A stretch of DNA of 64,000 nt, taken from Chitinivibrionales bacterium (GTDB lineage Bacteria; Fibrobacterota; Chitinivibrionia; Chitinivibrionales; WJKA01). The notes under the pieces are model-generated. The model worked only from the letters and a program-made list of their open reading frames with translations, did not search any database and had not been told where the DNA came from. Of the stretch, positions 34,682 to 56,152 are shown in pieces. Where the stretch lies: assembly GCA_014728295.1 (NCBI GenBank), contig WJLW01000075.1:1-64000 (forward strand), in the 5' to 3' direction. The stretch's first letter is position 1, and each line of letters starts with the position of its first letter. Position numbers and translations under genes: made by a program.

Positions 34682-35471
34682 CTAGTTGGCACGAAACGGA
34701 AAAACATTATCGGCATAAAACTTCTTATAATTCACCACTGATGATACAAGGGGTTGCATAGATTTGTCTCGTTCAACCATCACCTGTACTTTTTGATTAA
34801 CATCATCGGTTTTCCCTGCGTTACTTGCTGCTTGAAGAACATAATCATAGCATTTTCGAACATCAGAGTATTCTGGTTCGTAACCGTAACCATCAGCATA
34901 TTTTTGTAACGCCATAAGACCGAATTTCAGGGAAAGGTCAGAACTTTTTTCAATATAATCTTTACAGGCAGTGGTTAAGGTCTTCGGTTCGACATCATAT
35001 TTTTTCAGCAATTTCTATGGCAAGCTCAATCATGCCAATTTTACGAGCAGCAGCAAAGTAGCGCCTTTCATTGCCGGGATCGGCCTCCAGTATACCATTC
35101 AGGATTCGTTGCGGTGATATCCTGGGGTACTTTTTTCTAATTGCCGATAACGTTGCCAATCCGATTGTTCGAAAAGGCAGCATTAAACCATACCGTTTAT
35201 ATGCTTCCTCGATTCTCCCTGCTTTAAACAGAATTTCTTTACCAAGATCTGCTGCTTGATAGGTGGAATTCGAATCGTACAGGTTATCATCAATCATTTG
35301 CAGCGCCCTGTCGACATCGCCCCTTGCTGCTATAATTTTTATTTCATATTGGCGATAATCAAACAGCATCCGCTCTCTTTGGCTTAAAATTTCAGTAATT
35401 TCATCATACCGACCTAATTCAAACAGGCAGGACAAATGCGGTTCTGCCCCTTTGAAATATAGCCCGGTGTG
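34682..35471 (-). pseudogene. Frameshifted, 5'-truncated helical-repeat gene
   Basis: Two overlapping minus-strand frames continue one another. The upstream frame (35471 down to 34995) encodes CLFELGRYDEITEIL and ends IELAIEIAEKI-stop. The downstream frame (35011 down to 34682) begins KKYDVEPKTL and ends NVFPFRAN. Removing one A from the A6 run at about 35005-35010 joins them as AEKYDVEPK. Both have TPR-like helical pairs (ALQMIDDNLYDS, EEAYKRYGLM). In the upstream frame a stop codon precedes HTGLYFKGAEPHLS with no good start, so the 5' end is also missing. The protein family is unrecognised. A sequencing error in the A-run would restore part of the gene but not its start. Confidence 0.6.
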
Positions 35472-35863
35472 TCAGATGAAAAAACATGTTGTGCTACAGG
35501 TAAAAAGTTGTCCGACCAGTAAGTCATTATCTCAGGTTCTGCGCAAAGATTAGTCCATTGTATAGTTTCGCATCGTCACCGCAATGACATTACAAGGGTC
35601 ATCCCCATGGAGGTATGGATCCAGGCGTATGTAAAGTGGATTCCCGACTGGACGGGAATGACACTATTAGATATTTCCGTCGTGCGGCATTGCAGGTGAT
35701 AATGATATTGCCCTGGCTCGCATAAAAAAAAGCATACCGGTCAGCCAGTATGCCAGATTTGCATGTCGATGCGGATTTCAGGTTTTTGAAACGGGTCGCC
35801 GCACCTCCGGTATCCATCAGTGCTGCGACCTCGATCCTGACCTGATTATTGATCCAGCACTGT
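35472..35863. other. Non-coding gap with repeat element
   Basis: About 390 bp between the decayed gene and the receiver operon end. It contains the 66-bp double-hairpin element (35598-35662). The remainder shows one minus-strand open stretch overlapping the end of the receiver gene with no start signal or recognisable product, so I call it non-coding. No promoter or terminator is clear apart from the hairpins of the repeat itself. Confidence 0.5.
35598..35662 (+). repeat. Dispersed double-hairpin repeat, copy 1
   Basis: A 65-bp copy of an element with ends GTCATCCCC and GGGAATGAC. It has a left imperfect hairpin and a right hairpin around ATTCCCG-N-CGGGAAT. It aligns almost end to end with the reverse complement of the copy at 47636-47701 and with the copy at 56087-56152. 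Confidence 0.8.
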
Positions 35864-36241
35864 CTATATTTCGCCAAGGACCTCAACAAAAGCGGAGGGA
35901 CTGACCGGCTTTTCGAATACTTTACGTACATTGGGAAACTCTTCGCCAGGAGCAAAGCTTTCGAGCAGGTGCTGCGGCTTGTGAATACCGGTGAGCAGCA
36001 TGACGGGAATCCCGGCAGTTTCGTCGGCATCACGCAACTTCTTGACCGTATCCAGTCCGGCACCGCTGTTTTCCATCATCACGTCGAGCAGGATCAGATC
36101 CGGCTTTACGTTCACGGCTTCGGTATAGCCCTGTTCGCCACTCTCGGCGGTGATCACCTCATAGTCGTTGCTTGTCAGCAGCTCTTTCAGCGAATCCCTG
36201 AATTCGGCGCTGTCGTCGATTATTAACGCTTTCTTACTCAT
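35864..36241 (-). CDS. Stand-alone receiver protein 3 of the redox operon
   Basis: A 125-residue single receiver (CheY-like) domain with no output domain. The acidic pocket is ALIIDDSAEF, the phospho-acceptor is LILLDVMMENS, Thr in VMLLTGI and Lys in VFEKPVSP. It is the last of three consecutive receiver genes, 16 bp downstream of the second, in the rex-kinase-NuoF-NuoE operon. A lone receiver can act as a phosphate shuttle or bind a partner protein directly. The three receivers share a design but differ enough in sequence to be separate products. The kinase at 39787-41736 is the obvious phosphodonor. Confidence 0.93.
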   Translation of the reverse strand: MSKKALIIDDSAEFRDSLKELLTSNDYEVITAESGEQGYTEAVNVKPDLILLDVMMENSGAGLDTVKKLRDADETAGIPVMLLTGIHKPQHLLESFAPGEEFPNVRKVFEKPVSPSAFVEVLGEI

Positions 36242-36257
36242 AGCAGTCCTCCTGGGA

Positions 36258-36668
36258 TTAAGGGTTGGTTTGCGATTGCTCCGTTAGCAGATTATGAACT
36301 TTCTCGATAAGCTTTTGGGGCTGGATCGGCTTTTCAATGACATCGGTCACCGGCAGATACTTTTCATGCGCTTCGAAGGAAAAGGGCAGATTCATCTCAC
36401 GGCTGATGCCGGTAATGAGCAGCACGGGTATCGTGGCAAGCTCTTTTCGGGATGCCAGAGCCTTGCTGACGTCAAAGCCTTCGGTGTTGTAGTCCATCAT
36501 TACGTCGAGGATGATGAGCGCGGGATGCATTTTCTCGACAAGTGCGAGACCTTCCTTGCCGTTGGGTGCATGCGCGGTGGCAAAATCTTCGTGCTCCAGA
36601 ATCTCCTGCATGCCGGCGGAAAACTCGGCATCATCATCGATAATGACGATCATTTTCTTATCTGACAT
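36258..36668 (-). CDS. Stand-alone receiver protein 2 of the redox operon
   Basis: A 136-residue single receiver domain: acidic pair in VIIDDDAEF, acceptor Asp in LIILDVMMDYNTEGFD, Thr in VLLITGI and Lys in VIEKPIQP. The phrase MMDYNTEGFDVSKAL closely parallels MMGYDTEGIDVARKL of the neighbouring receiver 1, so the two are likely duplicates. The open frame begins four codons earlier at 36680, but the internal ATG at 36668 has GGAG seven bases upstream and is preferred. Spacing to receivers 1 and 3 is about 14 and 16 bp. Confidence 0.93.
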   Translation of the reverse strand: MSDKKMIVIIDDDAEFSAGMQEILEHEDFATAHAPNGKEGLALVEKMHPALIILDVMMDYNTEGFDVSKALASRKELATIPVLLITGISREMNLPFSFEAHEKYLPVTDVIEKPIQPQKLIEKVHNLLTEQSQTNP

Positions 36669-36682
36669 GATATTCTCCATGG

Positions 36683-37078
36683 TTAAAGCCCGGGTTCGAG
36701 AAGCTTTTTTATTTCACCGATCAGCGTTTTCGGGTCGATCGGCTTTTCGTATACCCGCTCGACCGGCAGCCAGTCGGGATCGGGTTTGGGCATGGCTGAT
36801 AATTTTTTTTCACCGACGATGCCGCTGACCAGAATTACTTTGGTCTTTTTCAACTCCGGTTCGTTGTGCAATTTCCGGGCGACATCGATGCCTTCGGTAT
36901 CATACCCCATCATTATATCCAGAATAATCAGATCCGGAATCATCTTGCGGGCATGTTCGAGGCCGTTTGTACCGCCGAGCGCGTAGTCAACTTCATAGTC
37001 AAATGCTTCGAGCAGTTCCTGATTGGCATGAACGAAATCTTCGTCGTCATCGATAATCAAGATTTTTTTCAAAGCCAT
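36683..37078 (-). CDS. Stand-alone receiver protein 1 of the redox operon
   Basis: A 131-residue single receiver domain with no effector. It has ILIIDDDEDF, acceptor Asp in LIILDIMMGYDTEGID, Ser in VILVSGIVGEK and Lys in VYEKPIDP. A GGAGG sits ahead of its ATG. It begins five bp after the NuoE-like gene, so it is translated from the same message. The insertion after the acceptor Asp (YDTEGID) is shared with receiver 2. Confidence 0.93.
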   Translation of the reverse strand: MALKKILIIDDDEDFVHANQELLEAFDYEVDYALGGTNGLEHARKMIPDLIILDIMMGYDTEGIDVARKLHNEPELKKTKVILVSGIVGEKKLSAMPKPDPDWLPVERVYEKPIDPKTLIGEIKKLLEPGL

Positions 37079-37083
37079 GAGCG

Positions 37084-37602
37084 CTAACCTCCCTGGTAGC
37101 CGTATGTTGCAAGTATTTCTTCGACCTGCTCAAGCTTGACATTACCGTAGACTTCACCGTCAATGATAACCACTGGCGCAAGGGCACACATACCGACGCA
37201 TCGGGCCGCCTCCATTGAAAAGAGGCCGTCCGGGCCCACTTCGCCTTCTTTGATACCCAGCAACGTCTGAATCCGCCGGGCAATGTCGCTAGCACCCTTG
37301 ACATGACAGGCGGTACCCAGACATACCGAGACCGTATGCCTGCCTTTGGGCTCCAGCGTAAAATAATGATAAAACGTGGCTACCGACAAGATTTCGTTGA
37401 CCGTTATGTCGAACATGCGCGCCAGTGTGACCAGATGCGGCTTTTTGAGATATCCCTCTTCGGCCTGTAACCGGTGAAGAATGGGGATCAGGAAACTGCG
37501 CGGATGTTCACGCCCGAAACACTCTTCGGCAAATGCCTGCACGGCTGGCGGCAACGGTTCGGCAGGGAGTTTTTTTGCAGTATCGTTCGTTACGGTTTGC
37601 AT
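37084..37602 (-). CDS. NuoE/HydC-like [2Fe-2S] subunit of an NADH-dependent complex
   Basis: A 172-residue thioredoxin-like ferredoxin of the 24-kDa complex I / HydC / HndA family. The four cluster cysteines are seen as CLGTAC and CVGMC. The N-terminal four-helix region (LIPILHRLQAEEGYL, VNEILSVATFYHYFTL) is standard. In hydrogenases and complex I this subunit pairs with a NuoF-type FMN subunit, encoded 23 bp upstream here. AAGGAG precedes the ATG. No hydrogenase large subunit or NuoG-like catalytic partner is found in the window. Confidence 0.92.
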   Translation of the reverse strand: MQTVTNDTAKKLPAEPLPPAVQAFAEECFGREHPRSFLIPILHRLQAEEGYLKKPHLVTLARMFDITVNEILSVATFYHYFTLEPKGRHTVSVCLGTACHVKGASDIARRIQTLLGIKEGEVGPDGLFSMEAARCVGMCALAPVVIIDGEVYGNVKLEQVEEILATYGYQGG

Positions 37603-37625
37603 AGCTGCTCCTTATTGCAACAGGT

Positions 37626-39794
37626 TTATGCTATCTTTATCGCGTCAAATTTACAAACTTCATAGCAGGTCCCGCACTTGATGCAGACTTCCTGATGAAT
37701 GAAGTGGGGCTCCTTGCGGAAACCGGTGATACAGTTGACCGGGCACTTTCGGGCACACGCTTTACAGCCGATACATTTGTCGGAAATGATTTCGTAGGTA
37801 ACCAGGCCCTTGCACTCGTTGGCGCGGCATTTTTTGTCAACGATATGCTCGATATACTCATCCCGGAAATGCTTGATGGTGCTGAGCACCGGGTTGGGCG
37901 CGCACTTGCCGAGACCGCACAGCGAGGCTTTGGTGGTCACGCTGCAGGCGTCCTCGAGTTTTTTGAGGTCGTTGAGCGTCGCCTTACCTTTGACGATATC
38001 GTTGAGGATGTCAAGTATGATAAAAGTCCCGGCTCGACACGGAGTGCACTGCCCGCAGGATTCTTCAACCATGAATTCCATGAAATAGCGGGCCAGCGAA
38101 ACCATGCAGGTGTCTTCGTCCATCACAATCATGCCGCCGCTGCCCATGATGCTGCCGGCCGACGTCAGCGAGTCATAGTCGACTTCGGTATCCAGATACT
38201 GCTCGGGCAAACAGCCGCCCGCCGGACCACCGGTCTGCACGGCCTTGAATTTCTTGCCGTCGGGGATACCGCCGCCGATGTCGTAGATGACCTCGCGCAG
38301 GGTGGTGCCCATGGGAACTTCGATCAGGCCGGTGTGCTTGACTTTGCCGGCCAGGGCAAACACCTTGGTGCCCTTGCTTTTGCCGGTACCTATTGCAGCA
38401 AACCAGTCCTCTCCGTCCAGCATGATGACAGGCAGGTTGGCGTAGGTTTCCACATTGTTGATAACGGTCGGCTTTTCCCAGAGTCCCGATACGGTAGGAA
38501 ACGGCGGTTTCTGGACCGGTTCGCCGCGATAGCCTTCAATCGATTTGATGAGCGCGGTCTCCTCACCGCAGACAAACGCACCGGCGCCGATTCGCACTTC
38601 GATATCAAAGTCCCAGCCGGAACCGAAGACGTTGGCACCGAGAAAGCCCTTTTTATGCGCTTCGTCAATGGCTTTATTGAGGCGCTCGATAGCCAGGGGA
38701 TACTCGATGCGCGTGTATATGAATCCCTTGCATGCGCCGATGGCATAGCCGCTGATGATCATGCCTTCCAGCACGGTGTGGGGGTCACCCTCGATGGTAC
38801 TGCGGTCCATGAACGCACCGGGATCGCCTTCGTCGGCGTTGCAGATGACATACTTTTCCTTTGCGCTCTGTTTGGCGGCAAGATCCCATTTGGTTGCAGT
38901 GGGAAACCCGCCTCCTCCGCGGCCGCGCAGGACGGACGTCTTTACCTTTTCGATGACCTGCTGCGGTGTCATATCGCCAATCACCCGCGCCGCGGCTTCG
39001 TAGCCTCTGACAAGCAAGTATTCCTCGATGCTTTCGGGATCGATAACACCGCAATTGCGCAGCGTCATGCGCAGTTGCTTGCCGTAGAAGTGCACATCGC
39101 CGAAAAAGGGAATAAACCGGTTGGTCACCCGCGGGGTAACGCTGATGTAGTCGCCGACGACCTTGTTGCGACCGAAGTGCTCATCGACGATGCGTTCGAT
39201 TTTATCGCGAGTCAAATTGACATACGTCACATTCTCGGGATAGACGTGCATGACGGGGCCTACTTCGCACTGTCCCTGGCAACGTGTGCGAGTGATAATT
39301 ACCTTGTCGGCCAGATCGTGATCCTTGATGCTCTGAAACAGGTTGGCCAGCGTTGCGTTGCCGTCTTTACTCTGGCATGAATCGCCATTGCAGATGCTGA
39401 CAACGCGCCGTACGTCCTCACGCCCGTCGGCAACATGCATCGAAAACTCCCGCACCGGCGTATTGTTGAGGATATGCTCATTAAATATGCGCTCGGCTTT
39501 CCGGGGCGTGACATGCACATATTTGATCGGGGTGGAGCTTCGGGCAATGACCGTCACTACCGGTTCCATATCACACCGGCCGGTGCAGCCGACGTTTCCG
39601 AGGCGAACGTTGACATCAGGGTGTTCCTGCATCAGGCGGCTGAAGGTCTGGTAGACTTCGCGGCTGCCGGCGGCATTTTCGCAGGTAGCCGAACCGATGG
39701 TGATGCGATAGTCAATGTTGAACTTGTTTTCAAACAGGCCCCAGATGGCCGCGTTTCTGCTTTCTCTGACGAGTTCTACGGGTTTGTCAGGCAT
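37626..39794 (-). CDS. NuoF/HydB-like NADH-binding FMN flavoprotein with extra Fe-S domains
   Basis: A 722-residue diaphorase subunit. Two tandem thioredoxin-like ferredoxin domains come first (about 28-110 and 128-215). The second has all four cysteines (CNGDSC, CQGQC), but the first has only three clear ones (SATC, CTGRC). Residues about 235-640 are the NuoF core with GRGGGGFP (NADH/FMN site near 291), the FMN-region phrase CNADEGDPGAF, the N3 cluster motif ESCGQCTPCRAGT and CGLGKCAPNP. The last 70 residues are a two-[4Fe-4S] ferredoxin (CIGCKACARKCPV, CIKCGTCYEVC). The total resembles the HydB/HndC subunit of electron-bifurcating hydrogenases but with an additional N-terminal domain. ATG at 39794 has GGAGG six bases upstream. 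Confidence 0.92.
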   Translation of the reverse strand: MPDKPVELVRESRNAAIWGLFENKFNIDYRITIGSATCENAAGSREVYQTFSRLMQEHPDVNVRLGNVGCTGRCDMEPVVTVIARSSTPIKYVHVTPRKAERIFNEHILNNTPVREFSMHVADGREDVRRVVSICNGDSCQSKDGNATLANLFQSIKDHDLADKVIITRTRCQGQCEVGPVMHVYPENVTYVNLTRDKIERIVDEHFGRNKVVGDYISVTPRVTNRFIPFFGDVHFYGKQLRMTLRNCGVIDPESIEEYLLVRGYEAAARVIGDMTPQQVIEKVKTSVLRGRGGGGFPTATKWDLAAKQSAKEKYVICNADEGDPGAFMDRSTIEGDPHTVLEGMIISGYAIGACKGFIYTRIEYPLAIERLNKAIDEAHKKGFLGANVFGSGWDFDIEVRIGAGAFVCGEETALIKSIEGYRGEPVQKPPFPTVSGLWEKPTVINNVETYANLPVIMLDGEDWFAAIGTGKSKGTKVFALAGKVKHTGLIEVPMGTTLREVIYDIGGGIPDGKKFKAVQTGGPAGGCLPEQYLDTEVDYDSLTSAGSIMGSGGMIVMDEDTCMVSLARYFMEFMVEESCGQCTPCRAGTFIILDILNDIVKGKATLNDLKKLEDACSVTTKASLCGLGKCAPNPVLSTIKHFRDEYIEHIVDKKCRANECKGLVTYEIISDKCIGCKACARKCPVNCITGFRKEPHFIHQEVCIKCGTCYEVCKFDAIKIA

Positions 39795-41736
39795 GTACAA
39801 CCTCCTCTTTGGCTACATAGGCGGGGAGTGTAAAAACGAATTCGGTCCAGTTACCTTTCTCGGAGCGGACGCTGATTGTGCCGCCGTGGGCTTCGACAAT
39901 ATGCCGGGTGATGAACAAGCCGAGTCCGGTTCCTTTTTTCATTTTACCTTTCTGCATTTCATTGACGCGGAAGAATTTACCGAAAATTTCGGGAAGATGC
40001 TCTTCGGCAATTCCTTCCCCGCTATTATGCACGCTGAATTCGACCATGTCTTCTTTTTTACGGGCCGACAGCGTTACCGTCCCGCCTTCATTGCCGTACT
40101 TGACGGCATTGCTCAACAGGTTTTCAAAAACCTCCAGCGTGAGATTGTAGTCCACGTTGAGCAGCAGTCCGGGTCTCAGGTTGTTGGCAACCTTCAGGCC
40201 CTTTTCTGCAATAGCCGCGTCGAACGAATCCATCAAGGGTTCGATGACGTCTTTGCCCAGGTCGAGACGGCCCTGAATCGGACGCAATTCTTTATTCTCG
40301 ATGCGCGACAGATTGAGATAGTGTCTGACCATTTCGGTGATGCGCTTGGTGTTGCGGTCGATATTACGCACGGCATTGATCTGCTTTTGGTTGAGGTCAC
40401 CGAACTTCTGTTCGCCGAGCAGATACACGTAGTTCATAATGCTGCCGATGGGCGTCTTGAGTTCGTGTGAAATAAAGCCGAGAGTTTCCATGTAGCTGGC
40501 GTTGGTCGCCTGCAGATCTTCGTTGACAACTTTGAGCTTATTTTCACGCTCGGTCAGCTCTTTGGCCATATCATTGAACGAGTCGATCAGCATGCCGGTC
40601 TCTTTGGAGCAGTTGCCGTAGGTAACAGTTTCCGGCGTATGTCCGGTGCGCATTTTATTTGCGGCGTCGGCCAGCAAGTGCAGCGGACGCGAGACATGTT
40701 CGGCAAAGAAAAACGCCAGTATCAGCGTAACCAGAATCGCTCCGGCAGATAGCGCTGCATATTGCCAGACCAGATTGCGAATCATATCAACAAACGGTTT
40801 TTCGAGAATGCCGACATAGAGCATGCCGATAATTTCGTTTCCGGTGTTGCGAATCGGATCGTAGGCGGTCACATACCAGTCTTTGACCACAAAGGCGCGT
40901 CCCAGCCAGCTTTTACCGTTGTCCAGCACGCGATCGGCAACTTCTTTGGAAACCCTGGTGCCGATTGCACGCTGTCCATCGCGGTCCAGCACGGTCGTTG
41001 CGATACGGCAATCTTTGAGAAAGATAGTGACGGTTCCCATTGCATTACCTTCATAGCGTTCATCCTTGAATACCGCTTTCTTTATCTGCTGAACCAATTC
41101 GGTATTCCGGTTAAGCACGACACCGCCATAAAGTACCGCTTTTACCCCGTTACCATTAGTGATGGGAACTGCGCTGATCATAACCATCCCCCGGTTTTCA
41201 GCCTCCCGTTGTGTCGGACGTGCACGGGGTGTTTCCTCAAGAACCATAAATGCTTTTTCGGCCAGATGGCCCTGCTCGCGGTTGAGCTGGTGCGAGTTCA
41301 TGAGCGCGATACCCGTCTCGACCGATCCCTGTAGCGCTTTTGTCAAGGCCGGTTCGGAACGGAAGTAATCACCGGAATTATAGGGCGGTGCGCCGCGCAT
41401 AACCACCTTGAGTTTCGGATCTGCAACACTTAAAAAGTCGAGTCCATAGCGCATGCGCACTTTTTCAAGTTGACTTTTGATCACCTCAGATTTCCACGCT
41501 GCCTCGTTACAGGCATCGACAAGCTGCGGGCGGTCGCTGGTCATTTTGAGTACCATTTCGAGTTTTTCCATCTCGGCGGACATGACACTCCAGGCGCTGT
41601 TCAAATCTGAGAGGACCTGCGTGTTGGCCCGCGTGAGAATCTCTTTGCGGACAACCTGTACACCGATAAATGCAGACAACGCACCAAACACGATTACCAG
41701 TATCCCGAAGTATTTAAGTAGTCTCGTGCGAAGCAT
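39787..41736 (-). CDS. Membrane sensor histidine kinase of the redox operon
   Basis: A 649-residue kinase. A transmembrane helix at about 10-28 and another at about 325-350 (WQYAALSAGAILVTLILAFFF) flank a roughly 295-residue extracytoplasmic sensor of the single/double-Cache type (CRIATTVLDRDGQRAIGTRV, DWYVTAYDPIRNTGNEIIGMLYVG). HAMP follows (HVSRPLHLLADAANKM), then a HisKA domain with FISHELKTPIGSI and an ATPase domain (NLLSNAVKYGNEGG, GEGIAEEHLPEIF, GTGLGLFI). It lies between rex and the NuoF-like gene, overlapping the latter by about 8 bp. The three downstream receivers are its likely targets, which is inference. Confidence 0.94.
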   Translation of the reverse strand: MLRTRLLKYFGILVIVFGALSAFIGVQVVRKEILTRANTQVLSDLNSAWSVMSAEMEKLEMVLKMTSDRPQLVDACNEAAWKSEVIKSQLEKVRMRYGLDFLSVADPKLKVVMRGAPPYNSGDYFRSEPALTKALQGSVETGIALMNSHQLNREQGHLAEKAFMVLEETPRARPTQREAENRGMVMISAVPITNGNGVKAVLYGGVVLNRNTELVQQIKKAVFKDERYEGNAMGTVTIFLKDCRIATTVLDRDGQRAIGTRVSKEVADRVLDNGKSWLGRAFVVKDWYVTAYDPIRNTGNEIIGMLYVGILEKPFVDMIRNLVWQYAALSAGAILVTLILAFFFAEHVSRPLHLLADAANKMRTGHTPETVTYGNCSKETGMLIDSFNDMAKELTERENKLKVVNEDLQATNASYMETLGFISHELKTPIGSIMNYVYLLGEQKFGDLNQKQINAVRNIDRNTKRITEMVRHYLNLSRIENKELRPIQGRLDLGKDVIEPLMDSFDAAIAEKGLKVANNLRPGLLLNVDYNLTLEVFENLLSNAVKYGNEGGTVTLSARKKEDMVEFSVHNSGEGIAEEHLPEIFGKFFRVNEMQKGKMKKGTGLGLFITRHIVEAHGGTISVRSEKGNWTEFVFTLPAYVAKEEVVHA

Positions 41737-41774
41737 AGTGTTTCCTTCTATTGACTAAAATCCACGTTGCAGTT

Positions 41775-42407
41775 TTAAGGATATACTACTTTTCCGTTCG
41801 AAGATGAAATTTGAAAAATCAGTTTTTCCAGCTCCATGGCCAGATTGATGCGGTTCTCGCTGCACTCCTGCGGTAAAACCAGCCGCACCGGAGTAAAATT
41901 GAGAAATCCCCGTACGCCGGCAAGTACCATACTGTCGGCAATTTTCTGGACCGCGCTGCCCGGCAATGTCAGAATACCTACTCTGATGGAATGCTGCATA
42001 ATGTACTCTGTCAATTTATCAGCTTCATAAATCGGTACCGAAGATTGCTGCCCGAGTTTTTCCTGATCGGTGTCAAATGCGGCTGATATTTCTATATTTT
42101 CCTCTTCGAAGCCATTGTAGTTGCACAGCGCCATGCCGATCTTGCCTGCACCGACCAATACAGTTTTAACGCGCTCATTTTTGCGCAACAGCTTATTGAT
42201 CTCATTGAGAAGCTGGTTGATCTGATACCCCCCGCGCTTGTTGCCGCTGGTCGTGAGCGTCAGAAAATCTTTGCGCACCAGGGATGCCGAAATATCCAGC
42301 GAATCAGCCAGATTGGTCGAAAACACCTTGGAAAATCCCATTTCCTTCAATCGCTTGAGAACGTTCTTGTATTCCAACATTCTCATGGTTAAGCTTTCGT
42401 GATTCAT
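41775..42407 (-). CDS. rex: Rex redox-sensing transcriptional repressor
   Basis: A 210-residue Rex-family repressor, a normal length. An N-terminal winged helix (about 10-80; SLDISASLVRKDF) leads into a Rossmann domain with the dinucleotide motif VLVGAGKIGMAL, followed by AAFDTDQEKLG, and ends in a swapped C-terminal helix (AMELEKLIFQISSS). Rex binds its operator when NADH/NAD is low and lets go when NADH rises. The ATG has GGAGG upstream. Two candidate Rex operators and a promoter precede it, so it probably autoregulates the operon that includes the kinase, NuoF/E and receiver genes. Confidence 0.94.
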   Translation of the reverse strand: MNHESLTMRMLEYKNVLKRLKEMGFSKVFSTNLADSLDISASLVRKDFLTLTTSGNKRGGYQINQLLNEINKLLRKNERVKTVLVGAGKIGMALCNYNGFEEENIEISAAFDTDQEKLGQQSSVPIYEADKLTEYIMQHSIRVGILTLPGSAVQKIADSMVLAGVRGFLNFTPVRLVLPQECSENRINLAMELEKLIFQISSSNGKVVYP

Positions 42408-42459: not shown

Positions 42460-42475
42460 TGTTATAAATATAACA
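42460..42475. promoter_or_regulatory. rex: Rex-type operator 1, TGTTA-N6-TAACA
   Basis: TGTTATAAATATAACA has perfect 5-bp arms with six intervening bases; the extended palindrome is ATGTTATA-AA-TATAACAT. It matches the Rex box style TTGTTAA-N4-TTAACAA in its core. It covers the -10 element of the rex promoter, ideal for repression by steric block. Confidence 0.75.
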
Positions 42476-42495
42476 TTAAACAGCGGTTTTGTCAA
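42467..42495 (-). promoter_or_regulatory. Sigma70-type promoter of rex operon
   Basis: On the minus strand TTGACA (42490-42495) and TATATT (42467-42472) are separated by exactly 17 bp. The -10 hexamer lies within operator 1 and operator 2 sits just upstream of the -35 hexamer. Transcription would begin about 7 bp beyond the -10, roughly 53 bp before the rex ATG. Confidence 0.7.
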
Positions 42496-42501
42496 CGTTA
42501 T

Positions 42502-42517
42502 TGTTATTCTAGTAACA
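42502..42517. promoter_or_regulatory. rex: Rex-type operator 2, TGTTA-N6-TAACA
   Basis: TGTTATTCTAGTAACA has the same arms and spacing as operator 1, 42 bp centre to centre (four helical turns). The two could bind Rex on the same face of the DNA. Confidence 0.65.
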
Positions 42518-42726
42518 TTATATTGCGTAACGCATTGATTTGTAATGTAATTCGGAGGTGGGGATTTAACCGTGAGCAAAGAAGATTCCCGGCTGCCCGG
42601 GAATGAAATGTTGCAAGTTGGCGCATTTTCTATAATGACGCATTCCTTTGGCACCCCGGCAATAACGCATGATATTTCTCCTCACCCCTTCGTCGCTTCG
42701 TCCCCTCGTTGCGTCGCACCACCCTC

Positions 42727-47635: not shown

Positions 47636-47701
47636 GTCATTCCCGTGAAGACGGGAATCTACTTTGCCCACGATATGGATACCCACCTCCGTGGGGATGA
47701 C
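47636..47701 (-). repeat. Dispersed double-hairpin repeat, copy 2 (inverted)
   Basis: A 66-bp copy in the opposite orientation to copies 1 and 3. Its ends are GTCATTCCCG and GGGGATGAC. Both internal hairpins are intact: ATTCCCGTGAAGACGGGAAT and ACCCACCTCCGTGGGG. Confidence 0.85.
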
Positions 47702-55991: not shown

Positions 55992-56042
55992 TTGGGTAAT
56001 CATATCGCGGGTAGCGTAGATTCCCGTCTGCACGAGAATGAC
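55992..56042 (+). repeat. Degenerate copy of the double-hairpin repeat
   Basis: The right half is clear (GATTCCCGTCTGCACGAGAATGAC), and the left part matches only loosely (GGGTAATCATATCGCGGG). It shares its right flank with copy 3. Confidence 0.6.
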
Positions 56043-56086: not shown

Positions 56087-56152
56087 GTCATACCCACGCA
56101 GGTGGGTATCCACACCGTAGGTAGCGTAGATTCCCTTTTTCATGGGAATGAC
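56087..56152 (+). repeat. Dispersed double-hairpin repeat, copy 3
   Basis: A 66-bp copy with ends GTCATACCC and GGGAATGAC, the left hairpin ACCCACGCAGGTGGGT and the right hairpin ATTCCC-N8-GGGAAT. Confidence 0.85.

Follow-up and report, generated by a model that had tools for sequence, protein, structure and literature searches.

Organization of the seven-gene operon

The window analyzed here comprises bases 1–64000 of the 158-kb contig WJLW01000075.1 of a Chitinivibrionales bacterium (assembly GCA_014728295.1). The genome, G000, has a size of 5.29 Mb in 134 contigs, with a completeness of 98.84% and a contamination of 6.39%. The minus strand of the window contains an operon of seven open reading frames that encode the repressor Rex, a membrane histidine kinase, a NuoF/NuoE-like pair designated BfuB and BfuC, and three receivers, RR1, RR2, and RR3. 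Families were named according to matches to Pfam and NCBIfam profiles. The features of the operon, in the direction of transcription, are:

42502–42517, upstream Rex operator TGTTATTCTAGTAACA, 6 bp 5′ of the −35 box
42467–42495, minus strand, predicted promoter TTGACA-N17-TATATT before rex, with TG 5′ of the −10 box; 11/12 consensus matches
42460–42475, downstream Rex operator TGTTATAAATATAACA, overlapping the −10 box
41775–42407, minus strand, rex, repressor sensing reduced nicotinamide adenine dinucleotide (NADH); NF003996, 196 bits, cut-off 138
39787–41736, minus strand, membrane histidine kinase: transmembrane helix, Cache sensor, transmembrane helix, HAMP, HisKA, HATPase
40774–41115, minus strand, sCache_3_3 module of the kinase, residues 208–321, with formate-type residues R244, T247, and T260
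37626–39800, minus strand, bfuB (hydB/nuoF-like), 724 amino acids
37603–37625, 23-bp gap between bfuB and bfuC, the position of hydA in HydA-bearing relatives
37084–37602, minus strand, bfuC (hydC/nuoE-like), 172 amino acids, with a [2Fe-2S] site; PF01257, 154 bits
36683–37078, minus strand, receiver RR1, Asp site intact
36258–36680, minus strand, receiver RR2
35864–36241, minus strand, receiver RR3
35731–35754, minus strand, predicted intrinsic terminator GGCATACTGG-CTGA-CCGGTATGCT-TTTTTTT with a 10-bp stem and T7

The distances between consecutive genes from rex to RR3 are 38 bp, a 14-bp overlap, 23 bp, 5 bp, 2 bp, and 16 bp. The 2-bp gap between RR1 and RR2 becomes 17 bp if the second methionine is the start of RR2. 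The coordinates and profile matches bear out the description of the locus in an earlier note on this DNA: seven co-directional genes of the families it named, separated by short gaps or overlaps, including three stand-alone receivers, the phosphorylation sites of which are intact. The terminator is positioned 110 bp 3′ of RR3, and no strong internal promoter was found within the seven genes. With a predicted promoter before rex and a predicted terminator after RR3, the transcription unit on the minus strand would consist of exactly these seven genes.

The operon is flanked by two copies of a palindromic repeat, ATTCCCG-N6-CGGGAATGA, located immediately beyond the terminator (35638–35661) and the promoter (42583–42606). 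Further copies are at 47637–47660, 56018–56041, and 56130–56151, and the window contains nine strand-wise matches, compared with 0.96 expected. Two overlapping open reading frames in different frames, located 3′ of the terminator (34682–35435, minus strand), resemble a single frameshifted gene and have no Pfam match.

The NuoF/NuoE-like pair is a BfuBC core

The Bfu family is defined by its BfuBC core (Schut et al. 2022, PMC9304861). BfuB of the window is composed of two N-terminal thioredoxin-like domains, a flavin mononucleotide (FMN)/NADH domain, an SLBB domain, a [4Fe-4S] domain, and a C-terminal two-cluster ferredoxin domain. Its closest PDB chains are HydB subunits of bifurcating hydrogenases, with 7t2r_B from a bifurcating NiFe enzyme on top (756 bits) and 7q4v_B at 738 bits, whereas chains of complex I trail far behind. 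Together with the FMN/NADH domain, the predicted clusters B1–B5 of BfuB and C1 of BfuC make up the complete family core. Judged by sequence, the pair is the BfuB–BfuC core of bifurcating [FeFe]-hydrogenases and not a part of complex I. The NuoE/F-type diaphorase of the earlier note was thus right as to families, but the pair belongs to a bifurcating hydrogenase.

A remnant of complex I was ruled out as the origin of the pair, because BfuB is matched best by HydB chains and its ferredoxin domain at the C-terminus is of the HydB type. Neither does the pair belong to a complex I NuoEFG module: the sole NuoG-like protein of the genome is HoxU, which lacks PF00384, membrane-arm subunits not having been searched for.

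Conservation of the operon and probable loss of hydA

Orthologues of bfuB with 65–66% identity are present in three other genomes. The complete order rex-kinase-bfuB-bfuC-RR1-RR2-RR3 occurs at locus L024, from another genus of the same family, and at L026, from another family. At L025 the unit extends from the kinase through the start of RR3, both contig ends being reached there. No hydA was found in the three neighbourhoods. The unit thus spans two families whose proteins are about 65% identical, and the repetition of the complete order in two further genera indicates that the arrangement is not due to chance. The genes downstream of the conserved unit differ among the four genomes. Across the four genomes the three receivers fall into separate groups of orthologues (support 95, 96, and 100), and the phosphorylated Asp is retained.

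The kinase family is found in eight of the 168 genomes of the phylum, at four HydA-less and four HydA-bearing loci. Orthologues of the window kinase have an identity of 55–57% where HydA is absent and 35–46% at HydA-bearing loci. At loci L044, L111, and L061 the order is bfuB-hydA-bfuC, whereas the window has 23 bp in the position of hydA. L044 and L111 represent the nearest outside relatives of the unit. The locus L044, from Omnitrophota, reads rex-kinase-bfuB-hydA-bfuC-hydF-receiver, and L111 reads rex-kinase-receiver-bfuB-hydA-bfuC-receiver with hydF nearby. More distant relatives of the kinase in genomes G041, G004, G030, and G009 are likewise located in [FeFe]-hydrogenase loci. RR1 of the HydA-less loci is sister to a receiver of L111; most HydA-bearing relatives have one or two receivers, compared with three here.

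In G041 (L027, 2556–15549), a single run of genes contains rex, the same kinase family, two differing BfuB, two HydA, two BfuC, and a receiver, so that two hydrogenases are in tandem; one of the BfuB is fused to a GltD-like flavin adenine dinucleotide domain. In G009 (L162, 6037–10983), a kinase relative is followed by two receivers and a second protein of REC-HisKA-HATPase architecture, 3′ of hydA and the maturases, forming a larger signalling set of the same type.

In the BfuB tree, the four HydA-less sequences form one clade (Shimodaira–Hasegawa-like approximate likelihood ratio test, SH-aLRT, 100) nested in a group of nine sequences (SH-aLRT 99), all other members of which are accompanied by HydA. 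The branch uniting L111 with the HydA-less clade has moderate support (84). The simplest reading of the tree is that hydA was lost once, along the stem of the clade. The ancestor would have been a Rex-controlled, two-component-linked operon of a bifurcating [FeFe]-hydrogenase with the order BfuB-BfuA-BfuC of sub-type III, from which hydA was lost, in two genera together with the maturases. On this comparison of sequences, the unit is a BfuA-less (“Type 4”-like) Bfu operon of hydrogenase descent.

The core of BfuB is intact in the HydA-less proteins. All cysteines of clusters B1, B3, B4, and B5, as well as C565, H652, C658, and C663 of the B2/Zn site, are kept in the four HydA-less BfuB. The fifth B2 position, which is Cys in the NiFe enzyme and often Thr elsewhere (PMC9304861), is Val603 in the window, Thr in the other three HydA-less proteins, and Val in eight of 91 HydA-bearing sequences. 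Relaxed selection on BfuB after the loss was not seen: five of 187 near-invariant columns are altered in all four HydA-less proteins, within the range of the control lineages (0–14), and three of these five are also altered in HydA-bearing L111. The private changes of the clade are A365I/V and K584Q, the latter within the B1 motif ESCG-K/Q-CTPCR. The absence of hydA and the maturases, and the missing sensor of the L026 kinase, could point to a decaying, functionless remnant of a hydrogenase operon. However, full-length frames, every Fe-S ligand, the receiver sites, and the Rex operators have been kept across two families at their present divergence, which makes decay very improbable.

Search for a catalytic partner

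Absence was judged from searches by protein family, the controls of which all worked. Neither the [FeFe]-hydrogenase domain of HydA nor the maturase HydF was found in genomes G000, G001, and G002, of which G002 is only 77% complete and yielded no close orthologue of the kinase or bfuB. The same search detected HydA in both G019 and G032, where it lies apart from the operon together with a BfuB of its own. In the absence of a HydA with an H-cluster domain, the window unit is not a group A3 [FeFe]-hydrogenase (HydABC). Molybdopterin oxidoreductases were not found in the four operon-bearing genomes. An unlinked formate dehydrogenase was ruled out as a partner, since none was found, and so was a partner just beyond the seven genes: the terminator is at 35754–35731, and no redox gene follows it up to a tRNA. 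The earlier note had stated that the unit has no catalytic partner, and this holds beyond the window: the transcript contains no hydA or nuoG, and HydA, HydF, NuoG-type, and molybdopterin partners are absent genome-wide except for the unlinked HoxU.

HoxU, the only protein of G000 with NuoG-type domains, is encoded on contig 128 (C128) beside HoxF and the subunits of a NiFe-hydrogenase. This locus (L034, 8322–13726) contains a second rex, and its HoxF carries a fused HoxE domain. BfuBC might borrow HoxU-HoxYH of this unlinked [NiFe]-hydrogenase and thereby produce a second form of it that bifurcates, as in HydABCSL of A. mobile. The best PDB match of BfuB to HydB of a bifurcating NiFe enzyme and the presence of a HoxU-type protein in all four operon-bearing genomes agree with such sharing, as does the position of HoxU as the only NuoG-like protein, adjoining NiFe subunits and a rex. 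However, a complete HoxF is already encoded at the Hox locus, where no sequence resembling a Rex box is conspicuous. HoxU also occurs in relatives without the operon, and BfuB groups with [FeFe]-hydrogenase-linked sequences in the tree. We therefore regard the borrowing of HoxU as rather unlikely.

The unit corresponds to Type 4 Bfu enzymes in having the core without a BfuA homologue: none is encoded in the unit, and HoxU is the only candidate in G000. It is not a Rub-Bfu, since bfuC and receivers, not rubrerythrin, lie downstream of bfuB. The BfuBC pair may nevertheless be a Type 4 enzyme whose subunit for the third substrate is unrelated to BfuA and has its gene at another locus, comparable to the proposed Rub-Bfu with rubrerythrin. 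BfuA-less BfuBC enzymes have been proposed (PMC9304861), and the retention of all bifurcation-core clusters would fit this possibility. It is nonetheless doubtful, because the conserved unit contains no redox gene other than bfuBC in any of the four genomes, and the downstream genes differ.

Rex and its predicted operators

The Rex protein belongs to a repressor family with an NADH domain and has cognate predicted operators. The motif TGTTA-N6-TAACA, which agrees with the Rex consensus (PMC5886521), occurs without mismatch at two sites in the 5.29-Mb genome, both at the rex promoter and 42 bp apart, against a chance expectation of 0.02 in the window. The reversed pattern has 11 sites genome-wide, so the argument rests not on rarity alone but on position, spacing, and promoter overlap. 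These are shared by relatives. G001 has two sites with a spacing of 42, each with one mismatch, and G032 has one perfect site and one with two mismatches at a spacing of 43; both pairs overlap the same promoter elements. Two sites with one mismatch each also surround the promoter of L044. Control of the unit by Rex is thus supported by two perfect predicted operators, from which Rex would repress the operon until the NADH/NAD+ ratio rises.

The kinase sensor resembles formate-binding domains

The extracellular part of the kinase has a confident AlphaFold prediction (predicted local distance difference test score, pLDDT, of 87), the fold of which resembles Cache sensors. A profile search of the PDB with the sensor returned only the formate-bound structures 8py0 and 8py1 (E ~1e-9). 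Formate binding by PacF is cited in PMC12501870 as requiring R142, T145, and T158. Residues R244, T247, and T260 of the window kinase repeat the PacF spacing R-x2-T-x12-T, as expected of a formate-binding sCache_3_3 domain, and are invariant in the eight kinases from HydA-bearing and HydA-less loci. The formate-bound matches and the invariant residues make formate the first candidate for the ligand.

The retention of only a redox core and signalling genes may suggest that the operon is a signalling device, in which the kinase or the receivers respond to BfuBC according to its NADH- or ferredoxin-dependent state, and the redox state inside and a carboxylate outside the cell are read jointly. 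The number of receivers, which exceeds that in most HydA-bearing relatives, and the clade-specific changes K584Q, beside the B1 cluster, and A365I/V fit such a device. However, the same kinase and receivers occur in HydA-bearing operons, where BfuBC is the enzyme part; no domain of BfuBC, the kinase, or the receivers suggests contact; and NADH is already read by Rex. A signalling role of BfuBC is thus quite unlikely. The same low probability applies to the evolutionary form of the idea, that the NADH- and ferredoxin-dependent states of BfuBC became an input to the kinase and the three receivers after the hydrogenase subunit was lost, producing a soluble sensor of the NADH/ferredoxin ratio joined to a sensor of outside carboxylates. 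The earlier note had interpreted the unit as a device that reads NADH and an outside signal and reports through receivers, which is supported only in part: rex, the kinase, and the receivers are shared with HydA-bearing relatives and are in the first place regulatory equipment of a hydrogenase operon. Because the signalling genes are common to hydrogenase operons, a diaphorase that reports through receivers is possible but has no direct support.

Proposed function of BfuBC

The reading that we prefer, with a probability of roughly 0.55, is that the operon descends from a hydrogenase operon by loss of hydA, and that it combines Rex-controlled NAD(H)/ferredoxin exchange by BfuBC with a carboxylate-sensing kinase that signals to receivers. 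In the absence of BfuA, electron exchange between NADH and ferredoxin under Rex control is the most likely predicted activity. BfuBC would exchange electrons between NAD(H) and ferredoxin via FMN and Fe-S clusters and would be a soluble oxidoreductase that has no BfuA-type subunit dedicated to a third substrate. The kinase would read a small carboxylate outside the cell, probably formate, and phosphorylate the three receivers, which would adjust the enzyme or its metabolic context through contact between proteins.

Four points weigh against this reading. First, ferredoxin–NAD(H) exchange without BfuA is here a prediction from sequence, and we found no demonstrated BfuBC precedent; the BfuA-less cases in PMC9304861 and PMC11406978 are also predictions only. 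Second, the full set of bifurcation clusters is odd for a plain oxidoreductase, which suggests that a third substrate may still exist. Third, neither pyruvate formate-lyase-like enzymes nor molybdopterin formate enzymes were found in the four operon-bearing genomes, so any formate that is sensed would originate outside the cell, from neighbours. Fourth, the kinase of L026 (9550–10662, minus strand; one draft assembly) lacks the Cache sensor, about 285 residues, and its first transmembrane helix is joined in frame to the part with the second transmembrane helix and HAMP. Sensing of an outside signal, which the earlier note attributed to the kinase, is consistent with the external ligand-binding domain in the window, but the loss in L026 indicates that it is not always part of the unit.

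Comparison with known systems

A literature search found no published account of an operon combining a kinase, Rex, and HydABC. By sequence, the operon is real and conserved, and it derives from a regulated operon for a bifurcating hydrogenase, with BfuA missing. Since BfuA is naturally missing while the core is intact across two families, the operon provides a defined two-subunit protein for studying BfuBC alone, including how it bifurcates electrons and whether it can work without BfuA. A further result is a subgroup of [FeFe]-hydrogenase operons regulated by Rex and a two-component system with a formate-type sensor.

Rex-regulated operons are known from fermentation and hydrogenase genes, for which control through TGTTA-N6-TAACA boxes has been predicted (PMC5886521). 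The box and the predicted control of a hydrogenase are similar here, but two operators with fixed spacing surround one promoter that heads the rex operon itself. The kinase shares its sequence match and the R/T/T residues with the formate-binding sCache_3_3 sensors of 8py0, 8py1, and PacF; unlike in these, the module is part of a histidine kinase, is membrane-proximal, and is preceded by an extra N-terminal module.

The residues and clusters of BfuB are like those of HydABC from Thermotoga maritima and HydABCSL from Acetomicrobium mobile, but the window has neither HydA nor SL. Type 4 (BfuA-less) Bfu enzymes form clade 57, some with rubrerythrin (PMC9304861). They share with the window a BfuBC core without a BfuA homologue; in contrast to them, BfuB of the window lies among HydA-bearing sequences, adjoins no rubrerythrin, and is surrounded by signalling genes. 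Among the closest known systems are also the sub-type III BfuABC enzymes, which were described in a 2024 survey (PMC11406978) as having the order B-A-C, a doubled B5 domain, and kin from Omnitrophota and Thermogutta, and into which L044 and L061 fit. The window BfuB has the two N-terminal thioredoxin-like domains and the B-(A)-C order of this sub-type, and its relatives in the tree are from Omnitrophota and Thermoguttaceae. Unlike sub-type III, the window operon lacks BfuA/HydA, in two genera genome-wide, and adds rex, a kinase, and three receivers. With the double domain and B-C order present and A missing, the unit looks, by sequence, like a derivative of sub-type III rather than a member.

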